Source of the DNA: Candidatus Mediterraneibacter quadrami
Lineage (GTDB): Bacteria; Bacillota; Clostridia; Lachnospirales; Lachnospiraceae
DNA: 55,918 bases
Assembly: GCA_019120575.1 (NCBI GenBank)
Contig: DWUU01000023.1
Coordinates: 1 to 55,918, forward strand
Direction: 5' to 3'
Shown: positions 34,626-49,852 of the stretch, in pieces
Layout of the letters: each line of letters starts with the position of its first letter
Numbering within the stretch: position 1 is the first letter of the stretch
Position numbers and translations under genes: made by a program
The notes under the pieces: generated by a model
What the model saw: only the letters and a program-made list of their open reading frames with translations
What the model was told of the DNA's origin: nothing
The model's database searches: none

Positions 34626-36146
34626 TCGCTTTCTGTTTCTCTGAGTCCTGAGCCTCTGCTCCTGCGGGCGACGCTGCACCTGCTGCCTCTGCCGCATTCT
34701 GCGGCGCTTCATCTGCGCTCTCTTCCGCCTTTTCGCCCGGATGATCTGAAGCCGGATGATGACCAGCGCAAACAGGATCAGGACAACCGCCGCCACGATC
34801 AGGACCGCCGTCAGCCAGCCCGGCAGCCGGAAGCCGCTTTCTTCCTGTCCGCCCTGCGCATGCTCCGTTTCTCCCGACGGATCCATCCGGTTCGTGTACC
34901 CGGTTGTCTCCTCGATATACTCCGGGGTGAGCGTCACATCCGCGCTTCCCACATTCTGGCCTTCATAATAAAACGTGATCTTTCCGGAAGCCTCCCGCTC
35001 ATCTGTGATCGAGATCTGGTGCTCCAGCGATGAGAAGTCGATTCCCTCCGGAAGGAGCACATAGGCGCCGTCTTCGGTGTAGGATCGGACTTCTTCCGGC
35101 TTCGCCTGTTCTTTCAGCATGACCTTGGAAAAGTTCTCAAACACATAGTCAAACATGGCCCGTGTGTCATCGTAGACATTTCCGTTGTCCCGGAGAACGA
35201 CTGCCGCCAGCCGGAGCGTTCCGTTCTCCGCCATGGTTACAAGGGTTGTCCTTGAATTATCGGTATAGCCGGTCTTGCCGCCCGTGCAGTATTCATAATA
35301 TCTGGAATGATTCGGCCAGAGCATCTTGTGGTTCTGCTGAACCGCCCTGGTCTCGTCCGTCAGGTTCGTCGCCCCGATGGTATAGTTCAGCGTCTGTGTG
35401 ACTGTCCGGAATTCTTCGTGTTTATAAAGCTCCGAGGCGATCAGCGCCATGTCATGGGCTGTCGTATAATGGAGATCATCGTGGAGCCCGTTGGCGTTCA
35501 CCCAGTTTGATCCCGTGCATCCAAGCTCCACCGCCCGGTCGTTCATTTTCTGTATGAACCCATCATAGCCGATTCCCATCTTATTCCCGACACTCTCGGC
35601 AATGGCATAGGCCACTTCGTTTCCAGAAGCAAGGAGCATCCCGTACATGGCGTCCTTCAGACTCAGGATCTCCCCCGGCTTCATGCCGATGCTGGCGTAA
35701 TCCCAGCGCAGGATGTCGATGCTGGCCGGGGAGAATTCCACTTCGTCATCCATATCCGCGTTTTCCAGCGCTACAAGCGCGGTCATCAGTTTCGTGATGC
35801 TGGCCGGATAATGCTTGTCATCCACTTTCTTCCCGTACAGGACCGCCCCGCTGTCCATATCCATGACGATGGCGGCGCAACCATATACCTGGGGGCCTTT
35901 CGGCCAGCCGGCAATGCTGTTCGTCTCCGGCTGTGTATCATATGATTTCTGCAGCGCCTCCTCATAGGACAGCCCTTCGATCCCGGCCTCGGCATCCGGA
36001 TTGATCGGCGCGGGAGCCTCCTGCTGCTGAGACTCCTCCGCAGGCAGAGCTGTCTGAGCTGACGGTTCGGCATATGCAACAGCCGGTGTAAGCAGCACGG
36101 CGCAGGCTATAACTGCTGCCGCCGCACGTTTCAGAATTCGTTCCAT
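34623..36146 (-). CDS. D-alanyl-D-alanine carboxypeptidase (S11, PBP5/DacF type)
   Basis: A 507-residue low-molecular-weight penicillin-binding protein that trims the terminal D-Ala from peptidoglycan stem peptides. Signal peptide at residues 1-27; catalytic SxxK in PASITKLMTALVALE near residue 117; SxN as ASGNEVAYAIAE near 175; KTG as TGGKTGYTDNSRTT near 290. A PBP5-like C-terminal domain is followed by a membrane helix (about 445-470) and a strongly basic Arg/Gln-rich tail, longer than usual for DacF. Regulation cannot be read; the terminator directly follows the stop. Confidence 0.9.
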   Translation of the reverse strand: MERILKRAAAAVIACAVLLTPAVAYAEPSAQTALPAEESQQQEAPAPINPDAEAGIEGLSYEEALQKSYDTQPETNSIAGWPKGPQVYGCAAIVMDMDSGAVLYGKKVDDKHYPASITKLMTALVALENADMDDEVEFSPASIDILRWDYASIGMKPGEILSLKDAMYGMLLASGNEVAYAIAESVGNKMGIGYDGFIQKMNDRAVELGCTGSNWVNANGLHDDLHYTTAHDMALIASELYKHEEFRTVTQTLNYTIGATNLTDETRAVQQNHKMLWPNHSRYYEYCTGGKTGYTDNSRTTLVTMAENGTLRLAAVVLRDNGNVYDDTRAMFDYVFENFSKVMLKEQAKPEEVRSYTEDGAYVLLPEGIDFSSLEHQISITDEREASGKITFYYEGQNVGSADVTLTPEYIEETTGYTNRMDPSGETEHAQGGQEESGFRLPGWLTAVLIVAAVVLILFALVIIRLQIIRAKRRKRAQMKRRRMRQRQQVQRRPQEQRLRTQRNRKR

Positions 36147-36224
36147 TTCGTTCCTCCGACAAAAAACGTAAACTTTCCCTATATTATAGTAAAACCGACT
36201 GCCGGATGCAAGTTTTTTGAACTT

Positions 36225-36250
36225 AAAAAAGGAGCCACTCAGCGGCTCCC
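36225..36250 (-). terminator. Terminator after the RhuM remnant
   Basis: On the minus strand GGAGCCGCTGAGTGGCTCC forms a 6-8-bp stem followed by six T, 29 bp past the RhuM remnant's stop. Confidence 0.8.
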
Positions 36251-36278
36251 ATAAGACAGTACAAACAAAAAGTAATTA

Positions 36279-36649
36279 TTAATTACTTTTTTCTTCTGTA
36301 CTGGCAATAAGACGATCAAAATCACTTTGATACAGACGAATTTGACCGTTGATTAATCTGTTTTTATCTAAAACGTATCCTTGCTTTGCAAAGGTATCCA
36401 GCACTTTTGTTGCCCATTGCCGGAATTGTGTTGCCCTGGCGGAATTTACACGGTAACCAACAGCAATTATAGCAGATAGCGAATGCTTCTATCTATATCG
36501 AAAAGCTGTCCAATCGCTTTTTGTGTAAGCCATACATTGTGATCCTGCACACGGACTTCAATGCTGTCCTCATGGGCATCCTTTGTAAATACAAGAAAAT
36601 CCACAGTGCTATTTCGGATCTGAAACTTTGTGCTCTTATTTTCAGTCAT
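36279..36649 (-). pseudogene. RhuM family protein, internally deleted and frameshifted
   Basis: The first part (MTENKSTKFQIRNSTVDFLVF ... VWLTQKAIGQLFDIDRS) is the N-terminus of RhuM-like proteins, which usually have about 300 residues. After DIDRSIRYLL the frame closes; translation in another frame continues with AIIAVGYRVNSARATQFRQWATKVLDTFAKQGYVLDKNRLI and ends at TAA 36281-36279, which is a later part of the same family. Roughly 30 residues in the middle, plus the C-terminal half, are gone. RhuM function is unknown (first noted on a Salmonella island). Confidence 0.75.
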
Positions 36650-36756
36650 TATGTATGATCCTCCAGGCATTCCCTGTAATCCGCTTCACTTGCGAAGAGG
36701 ATGTATTCACCGTCCACATATCCCATATATCCGTTGTCTGTATTGTATCCTTTCAT
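36649..36756 (-). CDS. Small 35-residue protein coupled to the RhuM remnant
   Basis: Reads MKGYNTDNGYMGYVDGEYIL followed by FASEADYRECLEDHT. AAAGGAG lies 9 nt before the ATG. Its TAA overlaps the ATG of the RhuM remnant as TAATG, a translational-coupling junction. The Gly/Tyr-rich 'GYMGYVDGEYILFASEADY' style recurs, from memory, as a small hypothetical protein in Lachnospiraceae, often next to such genes. Function unknown. It is intact although its partner is broken. Confidence 0.6.
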   Translation of the reverse strand: MKGYNTDNGYMGYVDGEYILFASEADYRECLEDHT

Positions 36757-36830
36757 AAGTTATCGCTCCTTTATCTTTTTTCTGATGTCAGAATAAAAGA
36801 TAAGGTGTACGATAAGAATACCACCTTCAG

Positions 36831-37769
36831 TTAAAGTTCCTCAAGATACTCCCTGGCCAGATTATCCCATTCCCTCCATCCGTCATCATTTCTCCGGTCC
36901 GGCAGATCATAATTGTCAGCCAGGTATTGCCCGATATATGCCGTCACTTTCCTCGCCCCGCTTATGTTGAGATGATCGCCCCTGTCATAGCTGTCCTGTT
37001 TCCAGTCGATCCCGATATCACGGAATTTCATGTTCAGATCCACATATGGCAGATTATTTTCCCGTGCATATTCTTCCAGTGAATTGTGCTTCTTATAATT
37101 ATAGTTCTTCGGCGAAGGCGCGCTTACCAGCAGGAGATCCGCCCCGTTCTTCTCGCACAGCCTTTTTATCTTCTCCATATATACGCGGACGACTTCCGGG
37201 ATCTGCGCCTTGTCCTTCGTCTCTTTCATATACTCTTCATCTCCCTCATAGGAAACGACTTTGTCCCGTATCTCGAATCCTTTATAGCTTTTCTTCAGGC
37301 CGCCCGGCCCGTCGAACAGCGCCTTCCAGGCGTTGTGGTATTTGATCACGGGAAAATGATATGCCAGCGGTTCGGTCAGGGACAACTGTACGTTTTTCAG
37401 AAATCCGGGATCCCGGAACATCGTATTCGTCTCAAAAAGCACCAATTTCGGCGACTGTGTCCTGAATGCCGTCTTCAATATGTAATAGGTCTCCTGGATC
37501 CGCTGCCCCGGCTGTCCGCAGTCGTATGCGGCGATCCCCGCCCGGTCCCACAGGTCCATCGGAGATACGGACGTATAGCTCTCGCTGTCGCCGGCCACGA
37601 GCACATCGATCGTATTCTTTTTCTCTGCGCTGACCGAGGCGAATACGCGGCTGCGCCCGCTCACCGATCCGCTTACATTTCTTACTATGACCTGTATCCC
37701 TGCGGAACACGCCCACAAAAGGACTGCAAATACAAGCAGGAACAGGATTACTCTTTTTAATTTCTTCAA
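36831..37769 (-). CDS. SGNH-hydrolase-fold, DltD-like protein
   Basis: A 312-residue protein with an N-terminal membrane helix (residues 7-28) and an extracytoplasmic SGNH-like domain: block I LVAGDSESYTSVSP with the nucleophile Ser near residue 63, and block V DRGDHLNISGARKV with Asp/His near residue 270. It plays the position of DltD, which helps move D-alanine from the MBOAT/carrier complex to teichoic acid. It is the last gene of the five-gene operon, 27 bp after the MBOAT gene. Similarity to true DltD is only in fold and place, so the acceptor is unknown. Confidence 0.8.
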   Translation of the reverse strand: MKKLKRVILFLLVFAVLLWACSAGIQVIVRNVSGSVSGRSRVFASVSAEKKNTIDVLVAGDSESYTSVSPMDLWDRAGIAAYDCGQPGQRIQETYYILKTAFRTQSPKLVLFETNTMFRDPGFLKNVQLSLTEPLAYHFPVIKYHNAWKALFDGPGGLKKSYKGFEIRDKVVSYEGDEEYMKETKDKAQIPEVVRVYMEKIKRLCEKNGADLLLVSAPSPKNYNYKKHNSLEEYARENNLPYVDLNMKFRDIGIDWKQDSYDRGDHLNISGARKVTAYIGQYLADNYDLPDRRNDDGWREWDNLAREYLEEL

Positions 37770-37796
37770 ATGAACCTCCTCTAATGTGCTTATCTT

Positions 37797-39383
37797 TTAG
37801 AATCCGGCGTATATCATATCCACAGCCTGATATCCGTCCCCGTACGCGGCGATCACGACCACCGCAAGGATCAGCGCATAATAGAGCCCCCATCGCAGAA
37901 AGACCGGCTTCTGTGCCAGGCTCTTCCGTATATCAATGCCTCTCTCTTTCACGGATCCTATAACAGCCACCGCGATGCAGCCGGCCGCAATAGCGGCAAG
38001 ATCCGCCCTGCTCATCCCCAGTTCAAAGATCCCGCCGTTCCACAGACCGGAGATGTCAAAATCCCGGAACATGCTGATGAACATGCGGACCCCGGCGCGC
38101 AGGCCATCCGCCCGGAAGAACAGTTCTCCGATGAAAATGATCACCCATGTTTTTGCGATTCTCATATACTTCAGGCCTTTCGCACCGGGATCAATATGAG
38201 CGGCCGCAAGGATCCGGTCGCGCACTGGCTCCACGGCTATCCCGATGAGGATCAGTGTAAAATAATACATCCCGTAAAAGATATAACTCCACCGCGCGCC
38301 GTGCCACAATCCGTTGCACAGCCACACCGGGAACAGCGCCATTGCGGACGTCCCAAGCATCGCGATATATTTCCCCAGACGCTTCCTGCCGTACTGGTTC
38401 CATTTTTTCACAGGCCCGGACACGGACACCGGGTAGAAGATGTACGTCTTGAACCACATCCCCAGCGTAATGTGCCACCTGCGCCAGAATTCAGCCGCGC
38501 TCTGCGCGCAGAAAGGCTGGCGGAAGTTCTCCGGGAGCCGGACTCCGAAGAGCTGGCCGCTTCCGATGATGATGTCCATGCACCCTGAGAATTCCATATA
38601 GAGCTGGACCGTATAGGCCACAGCCGCGAATGCGGTCATCACTCCGCTGTAGGATGCATAGTTTCCGAATATGGCGTCCACACCGATGGCCAGCCGGTCC
38701 GCGACCACCTTTTTCTTAAAGAGGCCCCAGAATATCCGGATATACCCGTCTGTAAGGTTGTCCATTTCCAGCGGCCTGCCTTCAAAAAGCGTATCGGATG
38801 TATCCTGCCACCGGCAGATCGGCCCTTCCATGATCTGAGGAAAGAAGGAGAGGAACAGCGCGGTCCTCTCCAGATCTTTCTCCGCCCGGATCTTCCCCCA
38901 GTATACGTCCGCCATGTAACCTACAGCCTGCAGCGTATAGAATGAGATGCCGACCGGCATGAGGATCTTCTTCTCCTCAAGGGTAAATGGCAGGATGCTC
39001 CCGAAGATCCCGTTCACATTTTCTGCAAAGAAGTTATAATATTTCAGATACGCAAGGATGCCGACAAGGAGCAGAATGCCGAATGCGAGTACCTGCCGGG
39101 ATTTTCTCTGATACATCCTTTTCAGCCGCTTCTTCTCTTCCCGTGGAACGCCGGCCGGCGCCGCCTTCTGTTCAGACCGCAGCCATTCCAGCCAGATCCC
39201 GATGCAGTGTACGAAGACCGTCGTTCCGAGAAGATATATGATCAGACTCCCGCTGAGTGACCAGAAGAACAGATAACCGGCCCCCAGCAGGACCCTTCCC
39301 CGCCACCGCCGCGGTGCGAGCTGATACAGGATCAGGCACAGCGGGAGAAAGGCGAATCCGTATACCATTGATTGATAAGTCAT
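37797..39383 (-). CDS. MBOAT family O-acyltransferase, DltB-like
   Basis: A 528-residue polytopic membrane protein of the MBOAT family (DltB/AlgI type). The conserved His lies in VWLCNGLWHGARWSYIFYG near residue 360, with the characteristic MDIIIGSGQLFGVRLPENFRQPF and FWRRWHITLGMWFKTYIF segments upstream. In dlt systems this protein passes the aminoacyl group from the carrier protein through the membrane to a Ser/Tyr of a partner and on to a polymer. It starts 3 bp after the carrier-protein gene, so stoichiometric expression is likely. Substrate inferred from the operon only. Confidence 0.92.
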   Translation of the reverse strand: MTYQSMVYGFAFLPLCLILYQLAPRRWRGRVLLGAGYLFFWSLSGSLIIYLLGTTVFVHCIGIWLEWLRSEQKAAPAGVPREEKKRLKRMYQRKSRQVLAFGILLLVGILAYLKYYNFFAENVNGIFGSILPFTLEEKKILMPVGISFYTLQAVGYMADVYWGKIRAEKDLERTALFLSFFPQIMEGPICRWQDTSDTLFEGRPLEMDNLTDGYIRIFWGLFKKKVVADRLAIGVDAIFGNYASYSGVMTAFAAVAYTVQLYMEFSGCMDIIIGSGQLFGVRLPENFRQPFCAQSAAEFWRRWHITLGMWFKTYIFYPVSVSGPVKKWNQYGRKRLGKYIAMLGTSAMALFPVWLCNGLWHGARWSYIFYGMYYFTLILIGIAVEPVRDRILAAAHIDPGAKGLKYMRIAKTWVIIFIGELFFRADGLRAGVRMFISMFRDFDISGLWNGGIFELGMSRADLAAIAAGCIAVAVIGSVKERGIDIRKSLAQKPVFLRWGLYYALILAVVVIAAYGDGYQAVDMIYAGF

Positions 39384-39386
39384 GAA

Positions 39387-39614
39387 TCAGTTCTCCTGCA
39401 GTCTCTTGATCATCTTCCAGATTGATTCCGCGGAATTAAAATTCTCCGGCATCATCTCCGCCGCTTCGATGTCGATATCAAAGGAATCTTCCAGTTCCGA
39501 CACGAGCGTGATCACGCCGAACGAATCCAACAGCCGGTCATCAATCAGGGCTTTCTCCTGTGTATAGTCAATACTGTCGTCGATCTCTTTTAAAATGTTC
39601 ATCAGTTCTTCCAT
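39387..39614 (-). CDS. Acyl/peptidyl carrier protein, DltC-like
   Basis: A 75-residue acidic helical protein with the 4'-phosphopantetheine site in LLDSFGVITLVSELED; Ser of DSF near residue 33 is the attachment residue (DSL/DSM in most carriers). Start at 39614 (MEELMNILKEID) has AGAGATAAGA-type sequence just before it; the longer frame overlaps the decarboxylase gene. It sits between decarboxylase (4-bp gap) and MBOAT (3-bp gap), so it probably carries the substrate from adenylation enzyme through decarboxylase to transferase. Confidence 0.87.
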   Translation of the reverse strand: MEELMNILKEIDDSIDYTQEKALIDDRLLDSFGVITLVSELEDSFDIDIEAAEMMPENFNSAESIWKMIKRLQEN

Positions 39615-39618
39615 TGTC

Positions 39619-40803
39619 TTATCTCTCCTCCATATTCCACACATAGGTTGGCTGTGACTTTCTCAGTGTTTTCCATCCGTCCTCCCTGCTGAAGGATACG
39701 ACGGCCGGCAGCGGATGGCTCAGAAAAAGAGCCATACCCTCCATCGCGGAGTAGGCCCCCGCACGTTCGAATACCAGGATCTTCCCGGTTCTGACGCCGG
39801 ACAATTCCACATTGCCGCAGAGCACGTCATTCATCGTGCACAGTGCGCCGCAGACGGTCCAATGCTTTTTCATGCCTGCATTTTCCTCCGGTATGATCCG
39901 GATCCCCGGCCGGTACATCCCCCGGATCTGCCCGTCATAATTGAGCTGATGGCTTCCCCCGTCCACGATGCAGTAATCAATATCCCCGTTCTTCTTCACA
40001 TCCCGGATCTCTGTCAGATAGCTGCCGCATTCTGCCGCAAACGCCCTGCCGAGTTCTATCGTGACCTTTCCTTTCCACTGCATGGACCGGATCGCATCCC
40101 TCAGTGCGCGAAATCCTTCGTCCGTATAGGTCTGCGCGTCTTTTCCCTCAAAATACGGCACAGCCGTCCCGGGGCCGTACTCCAGGTGACGGACCTGTAT
40201 ATTCCACTCATCCCGCATCTTCTGCAGAAAATCATCCAGCATCTCCAGCTCCGCCCGGAACTGTCTCAGATGCCGCTTCTGTGTGCCTGAGAAATAATGC
40301 AGCCCTTCGATCTCCAGATACGGGCTCATGGCGGCCAGCCCGAACACGCTGCGCACCGCATCCTCGTCCATGCCGAACTGGGAACCGTTGGTCAGCCGTG
40401 GATAGAGCCTGAGCACTTTCTTATGTTCATCGCTCCACTCCAGGAAATGATGGAGCTGCTTTATTGATTCCACTGTATAGCGGCACCGTCCTTCACAGGC
40501 ATCCAGGATCCGATATATATCCTCCTTCTTCTTCAGCACGCCGGAGATGAGAAGCTTCTCCGGTGGGATCTCCAGCTCCCTGCAGATCAGAAATTCGCCC
40601 ATAGAGCATACTTCGATCCGATCCGTACAGCCGGCCATCACTTCTGTCAGAAAGGGGTTGGCCTTCATGGCATAACAGAGTCCGATTTCCTCTCCCAGGG
40701 CATTTTTTATCCTGTCCGCCTGTTTCTTCAACAGGTCAAGATCAAAAATATAGAGCGGGGTCCCGTACCTTGACGCCGCATATTCCAACTGTTCTCTTCG
40801 CAT
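39619..40803 (-). CDS. PLP-dependent decarboxylase, alanine-racemase fold (DAP decarboxylase/BtrK-like)
   Basis: A 394-residue fold-type III PLP enzyme. The PLP lysine is in IGLCYAMKANPF near residue 47, the glycine loop in HLEYGPGTAVPYF near residue 205, and the second active-site segment in CGALCTMNDVLCGN near residue 325, with ERAGAYSAMEGM near 355. Family members decarboxylate meso-DAP, ornithine/arginine or, in butirosin synthesis (BtrK), carrier-bound glutamate. It is inside a dlt-like operon, 12 bp after the adenylation gene and 4 bp before the carrier gene, and no other lysine-pathway gene is near. Action on a carrier-bound amino acid is therefore the best hypothesis. Confidence 0.85.
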   Translation of the reverse strand: MRREQLEYAASRYGTPLYIFDLDLLKKQADRIKNALGEEIGLCYAMKANPFLTEVMAGCTDRIEVCSMGEFLICRELEIPPEKLLISGVLKKKEDIYRILDACEGRCRYTVESIKQLHHFLEWSDEHKKVLRLYPRLTNGSQFGMDEDAVRSVFGLAAMSPYLEIEGLHYFSGTQKRHLRQFRAELEMLDDFLQKMRDEWNIQVRHLEYGPGTAVPYFEGKDAQTYTDEGFRALRDAIRSMQWKGKVTIELGRAFAAECGSYLTEIRDVKKNGDIDYCIVDGGSHQLNYDGQIRGMYRPGIRIIPEENAGMKKHWTVCGALCTMNDVLCGNVELSGVRTGKILVFERAGAYSAMEGMALFLSHPLPAVVSFSREDGWKTLRKSQPTYVWNMEER

Positions 40804-40815
40804 AGGTTCCTCCTT

Positions 40816-42315
40816 CTATCCCATTTGCTTAAGACTGGCCCGGTCCGTCTTCCCGTTCTTGTTGAGCGGCATGGCCTCCAGCCGCACCAGCTTCGCCGGG
40901 ACCATGTACGCCGGCAGCTTATCTTTCAGATCCCTGCGCACTTCCGCGGGTTCGGCATCGCCCATATAGAAACCGGCGATGCGGTTCTTCTTCTCCTGGA
41001 AGACGCAGCAGCTTCTCTGCACATCCTGCACCGCATTCATCGCATTCTCTATCTCTTCCAGTTCGATCCGGTGCCCCATATGCTTGATCTGAAAATCCTT
41101 TCTCCCGGCAAACATAAGCCGTCCTCTCTCGTCGTAGTATCCCAGGTCCCCGGTCCGGTATATGCGCCGTGGCCGGCCGCCTCCGACCGGATACATGACG
41201 AACCGTTTCCCGGTCTGCTCCTCATCCCGGTAGTACCCCCGGGCGAGAGACTCGCCCGCCACGCAGATCTCGCCCTGTCTTCCCGGGTCTGCGATCTCAA
41301 GGTCCTCCTCATCCAGGAGGAATACGGTCCTGCCGGGAAATGCTTTTCCGATCGGGATCTTCTCCCCTTCTTCATAATCCCATACAACCGGATAGTAGGT
41401 GCAGTTGCACGTGATCTCGGTGGGCCCGTACAGATTATAAAAATGTGTGTGGGGAAGAGCCTCCCGCCAGAGCTTCAACTGCTTCGGAGGCATCGCCTCC
41501 CCGCTGAACATGACTTTATTCACCCGGTCCGGCACCCTGTACCTGAGCCCTTTCAGCGAAGATATGAGGGTCAGCGCCGACACCGCCCATGTGAGTGACG
41601 TGACCTTTTTCTCACACAGATAATCCAGAAGCCTGGGCGGCGTGGCAAAGTATTCCTTCGGGATCAGCACGAGCTTCGCACCGGTCATCAGTGAAGAATA
41701 GATATCCTTTACCGACACATCAAAATCAAAGGGAGCCTGATTGCCGATCACATCCCCGGCCGTGATCCCGAATATCTCTGTAAAATGCCGGATAAACCGG
41801 ATCACCGCGCCATGGCTCACCGCTACTGCTTTCGGCGTGCCGGTGGAGCCGGATGTAAAGATCCCGTACAGGATATCCGTCTCCCCGGACTGCTCCCGGA
41901 TCTTTGCCAGCCGCGCCGGATCCGCATCCTCCTTCACCAGATCTTCCGCAAAGACCCGGATGTCCTCTCTCCCGGACAGCTCCGCCGTCTTCCGGTCCGT
42001 CACCAGGATCTCCGGTTCCAGCAGATGAAAGATCTTCATAAGCCGTTCCGGCGGATTGTCCGGATTAACCGGGACATAAAAACATCCGGCATACACAGCG
42101 CCCAGCATGACTGCCAGCATGAGCGGACTTTTCTCCATCATGACCGGGACCGGACTGCCCGTCCGCACGCGCCTGCTGATGCCGCTGCCGATCCGCCTCG
42201 CCATCACGGCAAGCTCGTCCCACGTAAGCTCTTCATCATTGCATTCAACCGCCGTTCTGTATCGGAAACGGCCTGCTGTATGTTCCAGATATTCCAGAAT
42301 ATTTGTTCTGTTCAT
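40816..42315 (-). CDS. Amino-acid adenylation enzyme, DltA-like
   Basis: A 499-residue stand-alone adenylation enzyme that should activate an amino acid with ATP and load it on the adjacent carrier. Core motifs: FTSGSTGTPKAVAVSH (A3) near residue 150, FDFDVSVKDIY (A4) near 195, NLYGPTE (A5) near 300, YRTGDLGYYDERG (A7) near 395, GRKDFQIKHMGHRIELEEIE (A8) and LNKNGKTDR (A10). DltA proteins have FDLSVMD at the A4 pocket; here a Lys replaces that Met, pointing to a substrate other than D-Ala, perhaps an acidic one. AAGGGGTGA precedes the ATG. First gene of the operon. Confidence 0.87.
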   Translation of the reverse strand: MNRTNILEYLEHTAGRFRYRTAVECNDEELTWDELAVMARRIGSGISRRVRTGSPVPVMMEKSPLMLAVMLGAVYAGCFYVPVNPDNPPERLMKIFHLLEPEILVTDRKTAELSGREDIRVFAEDLVKEDADPARLAKIREQSGETDILYGIFTSGSTGTPKAVAVSHGAVIRFIRHFTEIFGITAGDVIGNQAPFDFDVSVKDIYSSLMTGAKLVLIPKEYFATPPRLLDYLCEKKVTSLTWAVSALTLISSLKGLRYRVPDRVNKVMFSGEAMPPKQLKLWREALPHTHFYNLYGPTEITCNCTYYPVVWDYEEGEKIPIGKAFPGRTVFLLDEEDLEIADPGRQGEICVAGESLARGYYRDEEQTGKRFVMYPVGGGRPRRIYRTGDLGYYDERGRLMFAGRKDFQIKHMGHRIELEEIENAMNAVQDVQRSCCVFQEKKNRIAGFYMGDAEPAEVRRDLKDKLPAYMVPAKLVRLEAMPLNKNGKTDRASLKQMG

Positions 42316-42468
42316 TTTGTCACCCCTTATTTCTTTGATGACTACAGTATGATTGATCTTTTTTAATATGCCGTGTAAATAATCTTAAGGTATCTTTAAA
42401 AACAGGATGGATTTTCACATATATTCTTTCATAAAAATAAAAAATATAAATTTTTTATAAATAAAATA

Positions 42469-42497
42469 TTTACACCCAGCTGCTTTTTCACTATACT
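42469..42497 (+). promoter_or_regulatory. cstA promoter (TTTACA, 17 bp, TATACT)
   Basis: TTTACA at 42469-42474, 17-bp spacer, TATACT at 42492-42497, about 50 bp before cstA. The upstream A/T-rich tract (42420-42468) could act as an UP-like element. Confidence 0.68.
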
Positions 42498-42547
42498 ATA
42501 GTAGTGTGCTAAAGAATTATACAAAAGAGACAAGGAGGTACAACAAC

Positions 42548-44038
42548 ATGATTACATTCATCATTGGTCTCGTGATCCTTTTCGTCGGCGCCGCCCTTTA
42601 CGGAAAGTTCTGCGAGCACGTCTTCAGGCCTGACGACAGGAAGACCCCGGCCTACACGAAGCAGGACGGCGTCGATTATGTTCCCATGAGGGGCTGGAAG
42701 AACAGCCTGATCAACCTGCTGAACATCGCCGGCACCGGCCCGATCCTCGGACCGATCCAGGGCATCCTCTTCGGACCCATCGCATTTATCACCATCCCGA
42801 TCGGCAATATCATCGGCGGTGCGATGCACGACTACTTCTCCGGCATGATCTGTCTGCGCGACGGCGGGACACAGATGCCGGACATGATCCGCAGATACAG
42901 CAACAAAGGTGTCTACACCGTATACCAGATCTTCTGCAGCCTGCTGCTCCTTCTGGTCGGCGCGGTATTCATCTACACCCCCGGCGATATCGCCGCGACC
43001 CAGGTATTCGGGTTTGACGGGGCCGTGGACTCGGTTTCCACATGGGTGATCTACGGCGTGATCTTCGTATATTATCTGATCGCGACCGTATTCCCGATCG
43101 ACAAGATCATCGGACGCATCTATCCGGTATTCGGAGCGATCCTGCTGTTCTCCGCGATCGGCGTCTTCATCGGCGTCTTCGCACTGGGCTTCCCGCTCAC
43201 AGAGATCTGGGAAGACTGGAATGCAGGAAGCGTCCTGTACGGTACATATTTCAGTGAGAACCACTTTATCCCGATCTTCTTCATCACGGTGGCCTGCGGC
43301 ATCCTCTCCGGATTCCACTCCACCCAGACAGCGATCATCTCCCGTACAATGAAGAGCGAGAAACAGGGCCGCATGACATTCTACAACATGATGATCCTGG
43401 AAGGCTTCATCGCGATGGTATGGGCAGCCGGCGCCATGGGCGTTTACAACCTGGGCCTTCAGGCGGCTGATGCTTCCCTGGCGACAGCGACCATCGGCGT
43501 CGTGTGCAAGCACATCCTCGGACCGGTGGGAGGAATCATCGCGCTTCTCGGCGTCATCGTACTCCCGATCACATCCGGCGATACGGCGCTTCGTGCGCTC
43601 CGCCTGGCAGTGGCTGACGGATTCCACCTGGATCAGAAGTCCACGAAGAAGAGACTGGGGCTTGCCGCTCTCATCTTCGTACTCGTTGCCGTGATCCTCG
43701 TATTCGCAAAGAGCAACGCGGACGGATTCAATATCCTGTGGAGATACTTCGCATGGTCCAACCAGAGCTTGTCCCTGTTCGCATTCCTTGCGATCACGGT
43801 CTGGATGTTTGAAACCGGCAGAGGCAAATATGCGTGGATGCCGCTCATTCCTGGATGCTGGTACGCATTTGTCACCGTCACCTATATCGTAAACGCCAAG
43901 ATCGGATTCAACGTTCCGTGGATGGGCGCTTACATCATCGGAATCGTGGCAGCTGCCGCATACCTGATCATCCTTGTATGGTACGGAAAGAAACGGACCG
44001 CAGCCAAAGCGGCAAAAGCGGCGCAGGCCGGGAAATAA
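42548..44038 (+). CDS. cstA: CstA family peptide/pyruvate transporter
   Basis: A 496-residue inner-membrane transporter with about 13 helices. The N-terminal CstA domain is evident from LNIAGTGPILGPIQGILFGPIAF, GAMHDYFSGM and YSNKG, and the C-terminal part from FHSTQTAIISRTMKSE and ITSGDTALRALRLA. CstA relatives import peptides or pyruvate under nutrient limitation. AAGGAGG lies 9 nt before the chosen ATG at 42548; the longer frame is not supported. Single-gene unit with its own promoter and a strong terminator; codon use is noticeably biased, suggesting good expression. Confidence 0.92.
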   Translation: MITFIIGLVILFVGAALYGKFCEHVFRPDDRKTPAYTKQDGVDYVPMRGWKNSLINLLNIAGTGPILGPIQGILFGPIAFITIPIGNIIGGAMHDYFSGMICLRDGGTQMPDMIRRYSNKGVYTVYQIFCSLLLLLVGAVFIYTPGDIAATQVFGFDGAVDSVSTWVIYGVIFVYYLIATVFPIDKIIGRIYPVFGAILLFSAIGVFIGVFALGFPLTEIWEDWNAGSVLYGTYFSENHFIPIFFITVACGILSGFHSTQTAIISRTMKSEKQGRMTFYNMMILEGFIAMVWAAGAMGVYNLGLQAADASLATATIGVVCKHILGPVGGIIALLGVIVLPITSGDTALRALRLAVADGFHLDQKSTKKRLGLAALIFVLVAVILVFAKSNADGFNILWRYFAWSNQSLSLFAFLAITVWMFETGRGKYAWMPLIPGCWYAFVTVTYIVNAKIGFNVPWMGAYIIGIVAAAAYLIILVWYGKKRTAAKAAKAAQAGK

Positions 44039-45444: not shown

Positions 45445-46641
45445 TTAAGAAAACCATTTCTTCATCGTCCGCAGCACCTGGATTAGTTCATCTTCTCCAA
45501 TCACATACGGAACCATTGCATACAGATAGTTTAAGAATGGCCTGCTGAATACGCCATGTTCACAGGCAAATTGCTGATAGCCCTTGATCGTACCTGGATC
45601 ATATACCTCGACACACACACAACCTCCCATTATCCGGATTTCTTTAATGCGCGGGTCGGAGAATCCTTCCATCTCATGCCGGGTAATCTCTTCAATCCTG
45701 CGGATTTTAGACATATAGTCCTGTTCTTCAAACAGCTCAATAGACTTCAGCGCAACACTGCATGCCAGGGCATTGCCCATAAATGTAGGGCCGTGCATCA
45801 GGGCGTGCGAAGGATTATCATCATAGAAACCTTCATAAACTTTCTGATTTGCCACTGTGACTGCGTGACCAATATATCCTCCGGTCAGAGCCTTGCCAAG
45901 AACAAGGATATCCGGCAGGACCAGATCCGCCACAAATCGGTTTCCGGTACGCCCGAATCCTGTGGCTACTTCATCAAAAACAAGAAGAACTCCATATTGA
46001 TCGCAAAGCTGACGCGCACGTTTCAGAAAGGAAATGTCGTACATCCTCATACCGCCTGCGCCCTGCAGCAAAGGTTCAGCGATAAAGCAATTAAGACGAT
46101 CATGATATTTTGCGAAAGCCTGTTCCAGGGCGCTTATCTCGGCAGGAATATGCAGGACTTGATCGCTTTTACCATATGCTTTCAAAACAAAATGATAATC
46201 CTCATCATCTCCCACTTCCATGGTTTTGAAAGTATCGCCATGATAGGCATGTTCCAGCGCCAACACCATGGTTCTCTGATGCTCTCCCCGATTCATATAG
46301 TATTGCAACGCCATTTTAAGAGCGACCTCTACCGCAACACTGCCGGAATCTGAGAAAAAACAGTAATCCAGATCTCCGGGCAGCCAGTTTTGGAGTTTTT
46401 CTGATAACTTTTCCGCCGGATCATGAGTCAGACCTCCAAGCATTACATGAGCGAATTTCTTCAGCTGTGCCTCAATCACCCGGTTAAGTTCCGGATGTTT
46501 ATAGCCATGGATCACACTCCACCAGGAGGACACGGAATCGATCAGCTTCTGATCCTCCGTGTACAGATAGACACCTTCTGCATCAACGATCTTATAGGGA
46601 GCCTTCATTGTTTTCATTTGCTCATATGGATACCAGATCAT
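45445..46641 (-). CDS. bioA: Adenosylmethionine-8-amino-7-oxononanoate aminotransferase
   Basis: BioA makes 7,8-diaminopelargonic acid from KAPA in biotin synthesis. The 398-residue class III aminotransferase shows SSWWSVIHGYKHPELN near residue 37, FSDSGSVAVEVALKMA near 95, FDEVATGFGRTG near 220 (PLP Asp) and LGKALTGGYIG with the PLP Lys near 248. At 398 residues it is a little short for BioA (about 430). It is the last gene of the operon and overlaps bioD by 4 nt. No bioF gene is in the window, so the strain may take up or otherwise obtain KAPA. Confidence 0.92.
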   Translation of the reverse strand: MIWYPYEQMKTMKAPYKIVDAEGVYLYTEDQKLIDSVSSWWSVIHGYKHPELNRVIEAQLKKFAHVMLGGLTHDPAEKLSEKLQNWLPGDLDYCFFSDSGSVAVEVALKMALQYYMNRGEHQRTMVLALEHAYHGDTFKTMEVGDDEDYHFVLKAYGKSDQVLHIPAEISALEQAFAKYHDRLNCFIAEPLLQGAGGMRMYDISFLKRARQLCDQYGVLLVFDEVATGFGRTGNRFVADLVLPDILVLGKALTGGYIGHAVTVANQKVYEGFYDDNPSHALMHGPTFMGNALACSVALKSIELFEEQDYMSKIRRIEEITRHEMEGFSDPRIKEIRIMGGCVCVEVYDPGTIKGYQQFACEHGVFSRPFLNYLYAMVPYVIGEDELIQVLRTMKKWFS

Positions 46642-47342
46642 TTTCTGTTACCCCCGTTCTCTTCGTAAAGCCCTTCCAGCAGTTCAAAAGAAATATCAAG
46701 GTCTGTGTCGCCGTCTTTGACACAGGCAACTATGGGCAGACCGGTCAGGACTTCGCACATCCGCCGGTTATCTTCGTGCATTGGATTGCCCGGCTCGTAA
46801 TGATTAAAGATAATGCCCTTCACAGGTATTTTGCGGGTTTTCATATATTCAGCCGTCAGCACCACCGCATTGATGGTTCCAAGTCCCGCGTCGGCGATCA
46901 TCAGACAGGTCAGACCTCTGGCCCTGATAAAATCTTCAAGCTGGATCTTCTGCCCGTCAAAACGGAGCGGGCAGAGAATCCCGCCGGACCCTTCCGCCGT
47001 AACATACTCATACTTGCCGCACACATAGTCAAAATTCTTCAGCACGCATTCCATTTCAACAGGGTTTCCTTCAAGTTTTGCCGCCAGATGGGGCGAGACC
47101 GCCGTTTCATAAATATACGGACACATCTCTTCAAGAGACTGTTCGGTCCCGGACATTGTTTTCACCTGTAAAGCGTCGCCGGGAATCAGTGTCCCGTCTG
47201 TCCATCGTTCATTTCCGCTCATTGCAGCCTTATAATAAGCGGCAGACACTCCTCCCTCCCGAAGCTTTTTGACAATCAGCCCGGTTATATAAGTCTTGCC
47301 AACGTCTGTTCCGGTCCCGGTAATAAATAAATTCTTACTCAT
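46638..47342 (-). CDS. bioD: Dethiobiotin synthetase
   Basis: BioD closes the ureido ring of dethiobiotin from DAPA, CO2 and ATP. The 234-residue protein starts LFITGTGTDVGKTYITGLIV (P-loop GTGTDVGKT) and has EGSGGILCPLR near residue 118. Overlaps bioB by 8 nt and bioA by 4 nt, a tightly coupled operon. Confidence 0.95.
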   Translation of the reverse strand: MSKNLFITGTGTDVGKTYITGLIVKKLREGGVSAAYYKAAMSGNERWTDGTLIPGDALQVKTMSGTEQSLEEMCPYIYETAVSPHLAAKLEGNPVEMECVLKNFDYVCGKYEYVTAEGSGGILCPLRFDGQKIQLEDFIRARGLTCLMIADAGLGTINAVVLTAEYMKTRKIPVKGIIFNHYEPGNPMHEDNRRMCEVLTGLPIVACVKDGDTDLDISFELLEGLYEENGGNRK

Positions 47343-48303
47343 TGCAGATCTTCACCTCATATCCCAGTTCTTTTAATAACGCCATATCTGTTTTTGTCGT
47401 AATTCCCGCGGTTGTCAGCATATCTCCCGAAATCGCCGCATTTGCGCCCGAGGTAAAACAGCTTTTGCCCTTGTCCGGCATCAGGCCCCGCCCGCCGGCA
47501 AGACGGATGGAAGCCCGCGGAAGAATGAAACGGTAAACGGCAACGATTCTCTGCATATCTTCTGGCGTCAGTCTCTCGTTGTTTTCAAACGGGGTGCCGG
47601 GGATTGGATTCAGCATGTTCACCGGGATACTGCGAACGCCCAGTTCACGCAGTGTAAGCGCCATATCGATCCGATCCTCTGCGGTTTCGCCAAGTCCCAT
47701 GATGCCGCCGCTGCAAACAGAGAGACCAGCGGCCTGGGCCGCCCTGATCGCCTGTATTTTGTCATCGAATTTGTGTGTGGTGCAGATATTTTGAAAATTC
47801 CTGCGGGAAGTTTCCAGATTATTATGTACTCTTGTCACACCGGCTTCTTTCAATTTACGGAATTGCTGCTCATTCAGCAGACCAAAAGAAACACAGACAG
47901 AGATTCCGATTTTCTCTTTGATTTCCCTGACAACTTCGCACATCAGGTCTACTTCCGCATCGGACAGACGTTTCCCTGATGTCACGATAGAATACCGAAG
48001 AACCCCCTGTTCGTGATTAATCTTTGCCTGCGCTAAAATTACTTCTTTGGATAACAGTGGATAAGTAGCGGCACAGGTATGATTATGAGCCGATTGTGCA
48101 CAAAACTTACAGTTTTCAGAGCAGCTTCCACTCCTGGCGTTAATAATGGTACAAATGTCAAATTGATCGGAGCAAAAGTATTTGCGGATCTTATCGGCGC
48201 TCCCGCATAATTCCAAAAGAGGCTGTCTGTATAAAAACAGAGCCTCTTCTTTTGAGATTTTTTTTCCGTTTATCACCTGGTCTGTTAATTCTTTCAAATT
48301 CAT
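47335..48303 (-). CDS. bioB: Biotin synthase
   Basis: A radical SAM enzyme that inserts sulfur into dethiobiotin. The 322-residue protein has the CxxxCxxC cluster motif as SGSCSENCKFCAQSAH near residue 60, with YSIVTSGKRL, VHNNLETSR and the auxiliary-cluster region. Part of birA-bioY-bioB-bioD-bioA, 10 bp after bioY. Confidence 0.96.
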   Translation of the reverse strand: MNLKELTDQVINGKKISKEEALFLYRQPLLELCGSADKIRKYFCSDQFDICTIINARSGSCSENCKFCAQSAHNHTCAATYPLLSKEVILAQAKINHEQGVLRYSIVTSGKRLSDAEVDLMCEVVREIKEKIGISVCVSFGLLNEQQFRKLKEAGVTRVHNNLETSRRNFQNICTTHKFDDKIQAIRAAQAAGLSVCSGGIMGLGETAEDRIDMALTLRELGVRSIPVNMLNPIPGTPFENNERLTPEDMQRIVAVYRFILPRASIRLAGGRGLMPDKGKSCFTSGANAAISGDMLTTAGITTKTDMALLKELGYEVKICNE

Positions 48304-48313
48304 TTTTACATCC

Positions 48314-48868
48314 TCACATTCTGCTGTTTCTCACGACCGGAATCATTCTTTTCCCGAGAAATGCCCCAAGAATACACAATAAAATATCTCCCGGCACAGC
48401 TAATATAAAACAGTACAAAAACAATGGCCATAAACCTATGGGATTTCCAAGATAAAAATTGCTCATCAGATAATAATAGACCATTCCAGACAGATAGACG
48501 ATCCCAAGACCGGTAAAATTCGCAGCAAGCAGGCGCCTGTAGCCAGGTTTTGGAACTCTGTTGGCTAGGACGCCTGTTACATAGGACGCCGCTGCAAAAC
48601 CGATGATATATCCAAAGCCCGGTTTCAGGATATACGCCGGACCACCACCTTCTGCAAATACAGGAAGTCCAAAAAGTCCAATCAATGTATATATCCCTAC
48701 GGAGGCAGCTCCAAGTTTTCCTCCCAGCAAAAGACCTGCCATCATAGTAAATAGAAACTGTAAAGTAAATGGAACAACAGGCACCGGTATTTTGATAAAG
48801 GCTCCAACAGCAATCAGGGAAACAAAGAGAGAGGACAATACTAAATTTATCGTTTTATTTTTCTGCAT
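48314..48868 (-). CDS. bioY: Biotin transporter substrate-binding subunit BioY
   Basis: The 184-residue S component of an ECF-type biotin importer, with six hydrophobic segments and the family motifs KIPVPVVPFTLQFLFTM, GLFGLPVFAEGGGPAYILKPGFGYIIGF. The energising EcfAAT units are not in the window. Placed between birA and bioB, so uptake and synthesis share control. Confidence 0.94.
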   Translation of the reverse strand: MQKNKTINLVLSSLFVSLIAVGAFIKIPVPVVPFTLQFLFTMMAGLLLGGKLGAASVGIYTLIGLFGLPVFAEGGGPAYILKPGFGYIIGFAAASYVTGVLANRVPKPGYRRLLAANFTGLGIVYLSGMVYYYLMSNFYLGNPIGLWPLFLYCFILAVPGDILLCILGAFLGKRMIPVVRNSRM

Positions 48869-48877
48869 ATGCTCTCC

Positions 48878-49852
48878 TCAAAAACGAATACTTATTTCAC
48901 CGGATGAACAGCGGTCTTCCGTACCATCAGGATATCTCACCAGCAAATGACACTCTTCATCTATACCAAGAACAAACGCATTCCTGGCTTCATTAAATGA
49001 CGTCAGCGTTACTGATTTTCCAATTACCAGACTACGATTTCTGTACTGTTCCACATAGTCCGTCTGACTTGCGGCGGAGTAATAACCATAAAATCTGTTC
49101 AGGAATTCTGAAACCAAACGATTTTTAACATCGCCCTGCCTTTGCTGGAAAACGGCTCCGGCTGTAGAATTTATTTCTTCTGGAAATCCGGTCTCTGGCT
49201 GATAGATGTTGATTCCCACTCCGAGCACAGCATAATCCAGTAAACCGTTTTCAAGATTAAAGGAACCTTCTGTTAAAATCCCGCAGACTTTTTTTCCCCG
49301 GACAAAAATATCATTCACCCATTTTATCTCAGCCTTCTCATCAGACACTGCCTCGATTGCCTCACACATGGCGACAGCCGCCATTGTAGTGATTCTGACT
49401 GCCTGCTGCCCGGAATAGTTTTCCGGACGCAGAAGAAGACTCATATAGATCCCGGTATCTTTTGGTGAAAAAAAGCTGCGGTTCAATCGTCCGCGCCCGT
49501 TAGTCTGCTCATTCGCAAGAACAATGTAACCCTCAGGCTTCCCTGCATTTGCCTGTTCCCTCACAAGCGTGTTTGTGGATTCCACAATATCCATCACACA
49601 GATTTCCATATCCTGAATCTCAGGACGTAAATACTTATAAATCCCTTGTGCCGATAAGATATCTGTCTCATCAGAAAGACAGTATCCCCTGTTTGTTACA
49701 GCAATGATCGCATATCCCTCGCTCTGCAAAGCTTTAACGGCCTTCCAGACAGCAGTCCTGGAGATAGCAAGTTTTTGGGCAATATCTTCGCCAGAAAAAA
49801 ATACATCTCTGTTCGTTTCAAAAAGTTCAAGTAGTTTTTCTTTTGTTGTCAT
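48878..49852 (-). CDS. birA: Bifunctional biotin ligase/biotin operon repressor
   Basis: The 324-residue protein has an N-terminal winged helix (ISRTAVWKAVKALQSEGYAI, residues 28-50) and a C-terminal ligase domain with the GRGRLNRSFFSPKDTGIYMS biotinyl-AMP loop near residue 115 and KWVNDIFVRGKKVCGIL near 180. It attaches biotin to carboxylases and, as holo-repressor, binds the operator upstream of its own operon. First gene of birA-bioYBDA, 10 bp before bioY. Confidence 0.95.
   Translation of the reverse strand: MTTKEKLLELFETNRDVFFSGEDIAQKLAISRTAVWKAVKALQSEGYAIIAVTNRGYCLSDETDILSAQGIYKYLRPEIQDMEICVMDIVESTNTLVREQANAGKPEGYIVLANEQTNGRGRLNRSFFSPKDTGIYMSLLLRPENYSGQQAVRITTMAAVAMCEAIEAVSDEKAEIKWVNDIFVRGKKVCGILTEGSFNLENGLLDYAVLGVGINIYQPETGFPEEINSTAGAVFQQRQGDVKNRLVSEFLNRFYGYYSAASQTDYVEQYRNRSLVIGKSVTLTSFNEARNAFVLGIDEECHLLVRYPDGTEDRCSSGEISIRF

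Follow-up and report, generated by a model that had tools for sequence, protein, structure and literature searches.

How might gut bacteria without dltABCD set the charge of their surface, and could an operon that joins a Dlt-like transfer route to a decarboxylase serve this end? The question is raised by five genes of Candidatus Mediterraneibacter quadrami (Lachnospiraceae; assembly GCA_019120575.1, a genome of 2.19 Mb and 94% completeness), which lie on the minus strand of contig DWUU01000023.1, positions 1 to 55,918 of which form the window analysed here (55,918 nucleotides). D-alanylation is one of the main means by which Gram-positive bacteria adjust the charge of their surface and withstand cationic peptides, yet it seems to be missing from many gut Clostridia: DltA above the TIGR01734 cut-off was found in none of 116 sampled genomes of this order and in one of 149 genomes of a phylum sample, a scarcity that agrees with the available part of PMC10877564, where Table 2 lists complete dltABCD in none of eight gut commensals. 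The five genes encode an adenylation enzyme (A), a pyridoxal 5'-phosphate (PLP) decarboxylase (DC), a carrier protein (CP), an MBOAT acyltransferase and an SGNH protein, separated by gaps of 12, 4, 3 and 27 bp, and both the open reading frames (ORFs) and the family matches confirm the one-directional, Dlt-like set with a decarboxylase that a preliminary description of the window had reported. The reading preferred here, with a probability of roughly 0.6, is that the operon encodes a self-contained pathway of envelope acylation, its donor arising through decarboxylation on the carrier protein.

The genes, their linkage, the conservation of their motifs and the existence of two A-pocket types are taken directly from the sequences, and from these we infer the substrate, the timing of decarboxylation, the transfer steps, the acceptor and the effect on charge. 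In the proposed pathway A would activate a dicarboxylic amino acid (L-Asp or L-Glu in the likeliest case, by way of the side-chain carboxylate) and load it onto Ser31 of CP, where DC would remove the alpha-carboxylate to leave beta-alanyl- or gamma-aminobutyryl-S-CP. MBOAT would carry the acyl group across the membrane to its own Tyr525 in the MIYAGF tail with which it ends, and the SGNH protein, which is probably membrane-anchored and extracytoplasmic, would accept it on Ser62 for transfer to a hydroxyl group on a surface polymer. The product would be an amine-bearing ester that lowers the negative charge of the surface, as Dlt does with D-Ala.

Table 1. The five genes of the operon, with positions in the window and residues of interest.
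Component	Coordinates	Strand	Features
A: stand-alone amino-acid adenylation enzyme	40816..42315	-	DltA-like size, different pocket: D197, D199, K203, S271, K489
DC: fold-III PLP decarboxylase, BtrK/SbnH/LysA superfamily	39619..40803	-	K47, GTQK176, C322-T-M-N-D326, Y351, E355
CP: 75 aa	39387..39614	-	LLDS31F phosphopantetheine site; nearest models AmcB and DltC, both under cut-off
MBOAT acyltransferase	37797..39383	-	WRRWH304, WH361G, C-terminal shuttle motif MIY525AGF
SGNH protein	36831..37769	-	N-terminal helix 2-31; G60-D-S62-E, D262/D265-H266

The five-gene system extends beyond this strain, and similar sets are found in many relatives. When 36 other genomes of the genus were scanned for DC at E<=1e-20, 14 gave a match, 13 of them orthologue-like (54-80% identity) and one, in G027, a cousin of 33% identity; none of the 24 genomes of the same order in that scan had such a match. 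Twelve of the 13 same-genus copies with flanks examined have the order A-DC-CP-MBOAT-SGNH on a single strand, and the thirteenth (L031, [Ruminococcus] faecis) reads MBOAT-SGNH-A-DC-CP with A and DC fragmented. Within the genus, DC and A have a mean column identity of 68% over 13 rows each; for MBOAT and SGNH, whose 14 rows include the faecis copy, it is 72% and 64%. When the DC alignment was used to scan named genomes, at least 571 relatives came up, of which the best 80 loci were kept and searched with profiles for the five proteins, genes being counted as clustered if they lie on the same strand with gaps of at most 400 bp. All five genes form one cluster in 55 of these loci (the broken faecis copy, here L048, included), and A, DC and MBOAT occur together in 61. 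Six gene orders are represented among the 55, namely A-DC-CP-MBOAT-SGNH (23), MBOAT-SGNH-A-DC-CP (15), A-CP-DC-MBOAT-SGNH (14) and three others once each. Among the 25 loci without a full cluster, six (L116-L121) have no MBOAT and fall with LysA in the tree (L116, the one that was scored, reaches 452 bits on the LysA model), and 19 hold partial sets, some at contig ends. An MBOAT lies somewhere in the retrieved stretch at 67 of the 74 non-LysA loci; three of the seven without it (L047, L057, L088, L091, L095, L097 and L114) have about 9 kb on both sides.

Carriers are mostly Lachnospiraceae, with complete sets also in Ruminococcus, Erysipelotrichaceae, Thomasclavelia and Coriobacteriaceae (Actinomycetota). 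In a metagenome-assembled genome (MAG) of Treponema (L103) all five genes are present, MBOAT and SGNH being on the strand opposite to the other three; a MAG of Actinomycetes (L100) shows four of them, A not being among these. Locus L105 reads MBOAT-SGNH-DC-SGNH-MBOAT, with no A gene in the retrieved stretch. The spread is patchy, with matches at E<=1e-60 in 20 of 295 genomes of the order and 5 of 398 of the phylum, the own genome counted. Since the A/DC/CP trio and the MBOAT/SGNH pair are each contiguous in 54 of the 55 clusters (the exception being L106) while their mutual order varies, two modules are favoured. Protein distances covary for every pair of genes (Mantel r 0.52-0.84, with none of 2000 permutations reaching the observed value; 55 sets, comprising 54 loci and the window), part of which is expected because the genomes share ancestry. 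The most variable component is SGNH, with a mean pairwise identity of 23%.

What the donor module handles is suggested by the pocket of A, for which 67 A rows, the window included, were aligned with two DltA-type proteins (701 and 545 bits against a cut-off of 560); the numbering follows gramicidin synthetase, with the roles that we take these positions to have. Position 239, Met in DltA, is basic in all 67 rows (Lys in 49, Arg in 18), the DltA Cys at 301 is replaced by Ser throughout, and an Asp stands two residues before position 235 in every row. The basic residue and the lack of the DltA Cys point to an acidic substrate rather than D-Ala, and the former would suit a substrate bearing one more carboxylate, which is what DC would remove. 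Two pocket types can be distinguished: D-V-K, nearly always in A-DC-CP loci (with exceptions such as L095, L101 and L107), and I-A-R, whose 18 rows all come from loci of A-CP-DC order. Judged by these residues the substrate is most likely Asp, Glu or another diacid, and by analogy beta-alanine from Asp would be at least as likely a product as gamma-aminobutyrate (GABA) from Glu. A PDB search with a type-2 A enzyme again returned LgrA as the best match, with no beta-amino-acid A domain on top and no hint of the substrate.

DC has the PLP Lys, the catalytic Cys and Asp and the two-domain fold of fold-III PLP decarboxylases. Its loop reads C-[T/S]-x-x-D in 73 of 73 rows of the system versus C-E-x-x-D in 8 of 8 LysA rows, and the Arg-Pro loop present in all eight LysA rows is absent from all 73; that loop and the Glu of the LysA motif presumably hold the free distal end of the LysA substrate. 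The active-site loop is like that of BtrK and SbnH and unlike that of LysA, the C-T-x-x-D loop and the GTQ motif being common to DC and BtrK. In the tree BtrK and SbnH stand on long branches outside the DC group, and the same branch splits both from the LysA rows. As far as the available account of the butirosin route goes, BtrK, itself of fold III, decarboxylates BtrI-S-glutamate and provides a precedent for the conversion of Glu to GABA. Gene linkage and the loop motif together suggest that DC likewise acts on an aminoacyl carrier thioester. Cousins of DC (32-38% identity) occur with an A gene and no MBOAT match in other clusters, L033:2646-11780 (G020), L034:2995-8023 (G003) and L032 (G027); the L033 cluster also has a carrier, and that of L034 a radical SAM gene (32 bits, cut-off 29.5) and an NAD-synthase-type gene (128 bits).

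The alternative that survives these data best, although improbable, is that DC decarboxylates the amino acid in free form (Asp to beta-alanine, Glu to GABA, or another) before A loads the product, with the rest of the pathway unchanged. Such a route needs the same gene set, and LysA, ornithine decarboxylase and similar fold-III decarboxylases do use free amino acids, LysA matching DC in the fold comparison just as well as BtrK (tied Z). However, the basic pocket residue of all 67 A rows would be superfluous for a decarboxylated product, DC is without the LysA loop residues that presumably hold a free distal end, and BtrK, whose loop DC shares, works on a carrier-bound substrate in the account cited above.

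On the transfer side, the carrier Ser is conserved in 69 of 69 aligned CP rows, and the window holds an MBOAT with the conserved His and a C-terminal acyl-shuttle Tyr motif adjoining an SGNH protein. The C-terminal pattern [FLMPIVA]xYxx[FY] is present in 67 of the 68 MBOAT ORFs of at least 450 aa from the 74 loci (the strict form FxYxxF in 40), against a chance of about 0.004 per protein by composition. The single MBOAT without it belongs to the copy of [Ruminococcus] faecis JCM 15917 (L031/L048), which is decaying and has A and DC in pieces. The motif is general, as a second MBOAT of the same genome ends FLYFRF; the unusual feature is its combination, on the MBOAT, with a carrier protein. This second MBOAT (L040:6383-10247, contig 36) adjoins proteins that look SGNH/DHHW-like by eye, and no A, DC or CP was seen there. 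A separate DltX was not found: positions 35500-43500 of the window hold no 25-90 aa ORF with the motif at its end, and the only DltX-like ORF in the 74 loci is on the opposite strand and looks spurious. The preliminary description had called the SGNH protein DltD-like, a label that does not hold at the level of family, as PF04914 matches neither this protein at E up to 0.1 nor any other of the own genome. DltD is also absent among the 50 SGNH fold matches listed, although that list does not exclude it.

In the flanks of the 74 loci the commonest recurrent neighbour is a histidine kinase (16 loci, 12 within 1.5 kb), followed by a response regulator (15 loci, 11 within 1.5 kb), each checked against Pfam on one representative, and this proximity presumably resembles the regulation of dlt in other Firmicutes. 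A family-2 glycosyltransferase flanks seven loci, four of them within 1.5 kb. The last of these would suit a pathway in which a secreted small molecule or a glycolipid, and not a wall polymer, is what the donor trio supplies and MBOAT and SGNH acylate, as would the MBOAT-less cousin sets (that of L033 with A, CP and DC, that of L034 with A and DC) and the carrier-decarboxylase trios that the available parts of the natural product literature describe; but such a role is unlikely given that MBOAT accompanies 67 of the 74 loci and that the commonest neighbours are regulatory and not biosynthetic genes. Wall teichoic acid enzymes were considered as a clue to the acceptor and set aside: PF04464 has no match in the own genome. 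PF00884 has five, one of them a 759-aa protein (L135:922-3201, contig 28 of the own genome) with an LtaS-like layout by eye, which scores only as Sulfatase PF00884 (98 bits). It is possible that this protein makes an acceptor polymer.

Less likely still is the loading of meso-diaminopimelate (meso-DAP) by its L end and its decarboxylation at the D end, which would place L-lysine on the surface. DAP decarboxylase is the best-known relative of DC, Aquifex LysA heads both the sequence matches and the fold matches, and D199 of A suits an ordinary alpha-amino acid, but the Glu and the Arg-Pro loop with which LysA is taken to hold the distal end are missing from the DCs of the system, and the window DC scores 160 bits on TIGR01048 against a cut-off of 298. 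A housekeeping LysA is ruled out by the loop residues and because another gene of the genome is a better candidate for that role, at 268 bits under the cut-off of 298. Ordinary D-alanylation with the PLP enzyme as a racemase making D-Ala can be dismissed as very improbable, for the alanine-racemase fold of DC (Ala_racemase_N, 27 bits) and the 303 bits of A on the DltA subfamily model stand against two missed cut-offs (476 for this model; 289 of 560 bits on the TIGR01734 equivalog), the loss of the DltA Cys in 67 of 67 rows, the decarboxylase Cys and Asp in 73 of 73 and a list of 50 DC fold matches, all decarboxylases, that does not exclude racemases, and a plain Dlt operon is ruled out on the A pocket, the DltD family and DltX.

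Within the window the operon neighbours a D-Ala-D-Ala carboxypeptidase and a CstA-like transporter. Directly downstream lies a minus-strand ORF of 67 aa (36467-36670), perhaps a gene remnant, with no Pfam match, and positions 45445-49852 hold BioA-, BioD-, BioB-, BioY- and BirA-like ORFs, judged by eye to be biotin genes. A scan gave 11 promoter-like sites where 6.3 were expected and 12 terminator-like sites where 4.6 were, one of the latter at 36250-36230, and was not used as evidence.

Taken together, clustering in several orders, covarying distances, the BtrK/SbnH-like loop, the basic A pocket and the shuttle motif on MBOAT lend comparative support to the Dlt-like carrier/MBOAT/SGNH route with a carrier-linked decarboxylase that had been suggested for this locus, while the amino acid, the carrier-bound timing, the acceptor polymer and the change in charge are carried forward as inferences. 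The chances are about even that the operon stands for a class of envelope acylation not yet described, whereby decarboxylation of a carrier-bound acidic amino acid yields an amine that a carrier-fed MBOAT, equipped with its own shuttle tail, delivers to the cell surface. This class would be the counterpart of dlt in gut Clostridia without dltABCD; it would comprise two or more substrate types, and its donor and transfer modules would be separable. Literature searches of open PMC papers listed none on this five-gene set. If it is a true counterpart of dlt, beta-alanyl or GABA esters would be a new surface chemistry, carrier-bound decarboxylation would gain a role outside antibiotic and polyketide synthesis, and the way in which commensals without dlt set their surface charge would become testable.

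Among known systems, the exosortase-A-associated pair of ligase and PLP decarboxylase is linked to surface polysaccharide loci, and its models TIGR03098 and TIGR03099 both match the A and DC pair, though far under their cut-offs (192 of 592 and 157 of 478 bits), and it was rejected as an identification. The butirosin system is alike in that a fold-III enzyme with the C-T-x-x-D loop and GTQ motif acts, in the account available, on a carrier-bound amino acid, and unlike in that BtrK makes an antibiotic side chain. Its loading enzyme, BtrJ, is presumably an ATP-grasp ligase and not an A-domain enzyme, and to our knowledge it includes no MBOAT or SGNH protein. VinN, VinL and VinO produce a macrolactam starter by the same chemistry as the Flv trio. 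In the latter, according to the available part of PMC10951976, the stand-alone A enzyme, carrier and PLP decarboxylase FlvN, FlvL and FlvO turn Asp-carrier into beta-Ala-carrier. The donor trio of the operon is likened to both by description, not by sequence, and theirs feed a polyketide synthase. PatAB and other MBOAT-SGNH O-acyltransferases differ in their donor, PatA using acetyl-CoA. Dlt (dltXABCD) and the operon have in common, so far as the available part of PMC12148441 describes Dlt, a carrier charged by an A enzyme, an MBOAT and SGNH pair supplied from that carrier, and an acyl-Tyr shuttle motif; the operon, in contrast, adds a decarboxylase, its A pocket has no D-Ala signature, its SGNH protein falls outside the DltD family, and its MBOAT bears the shuttle motif that Dlt has on a separate DltX. 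A carrier-borne donor joined to a shuttle tail on the MBOAT, which does not appear in the part of PMC12148441 that was available, would make the system, if a true counterpart of dlt, a mechanistic hybrid.

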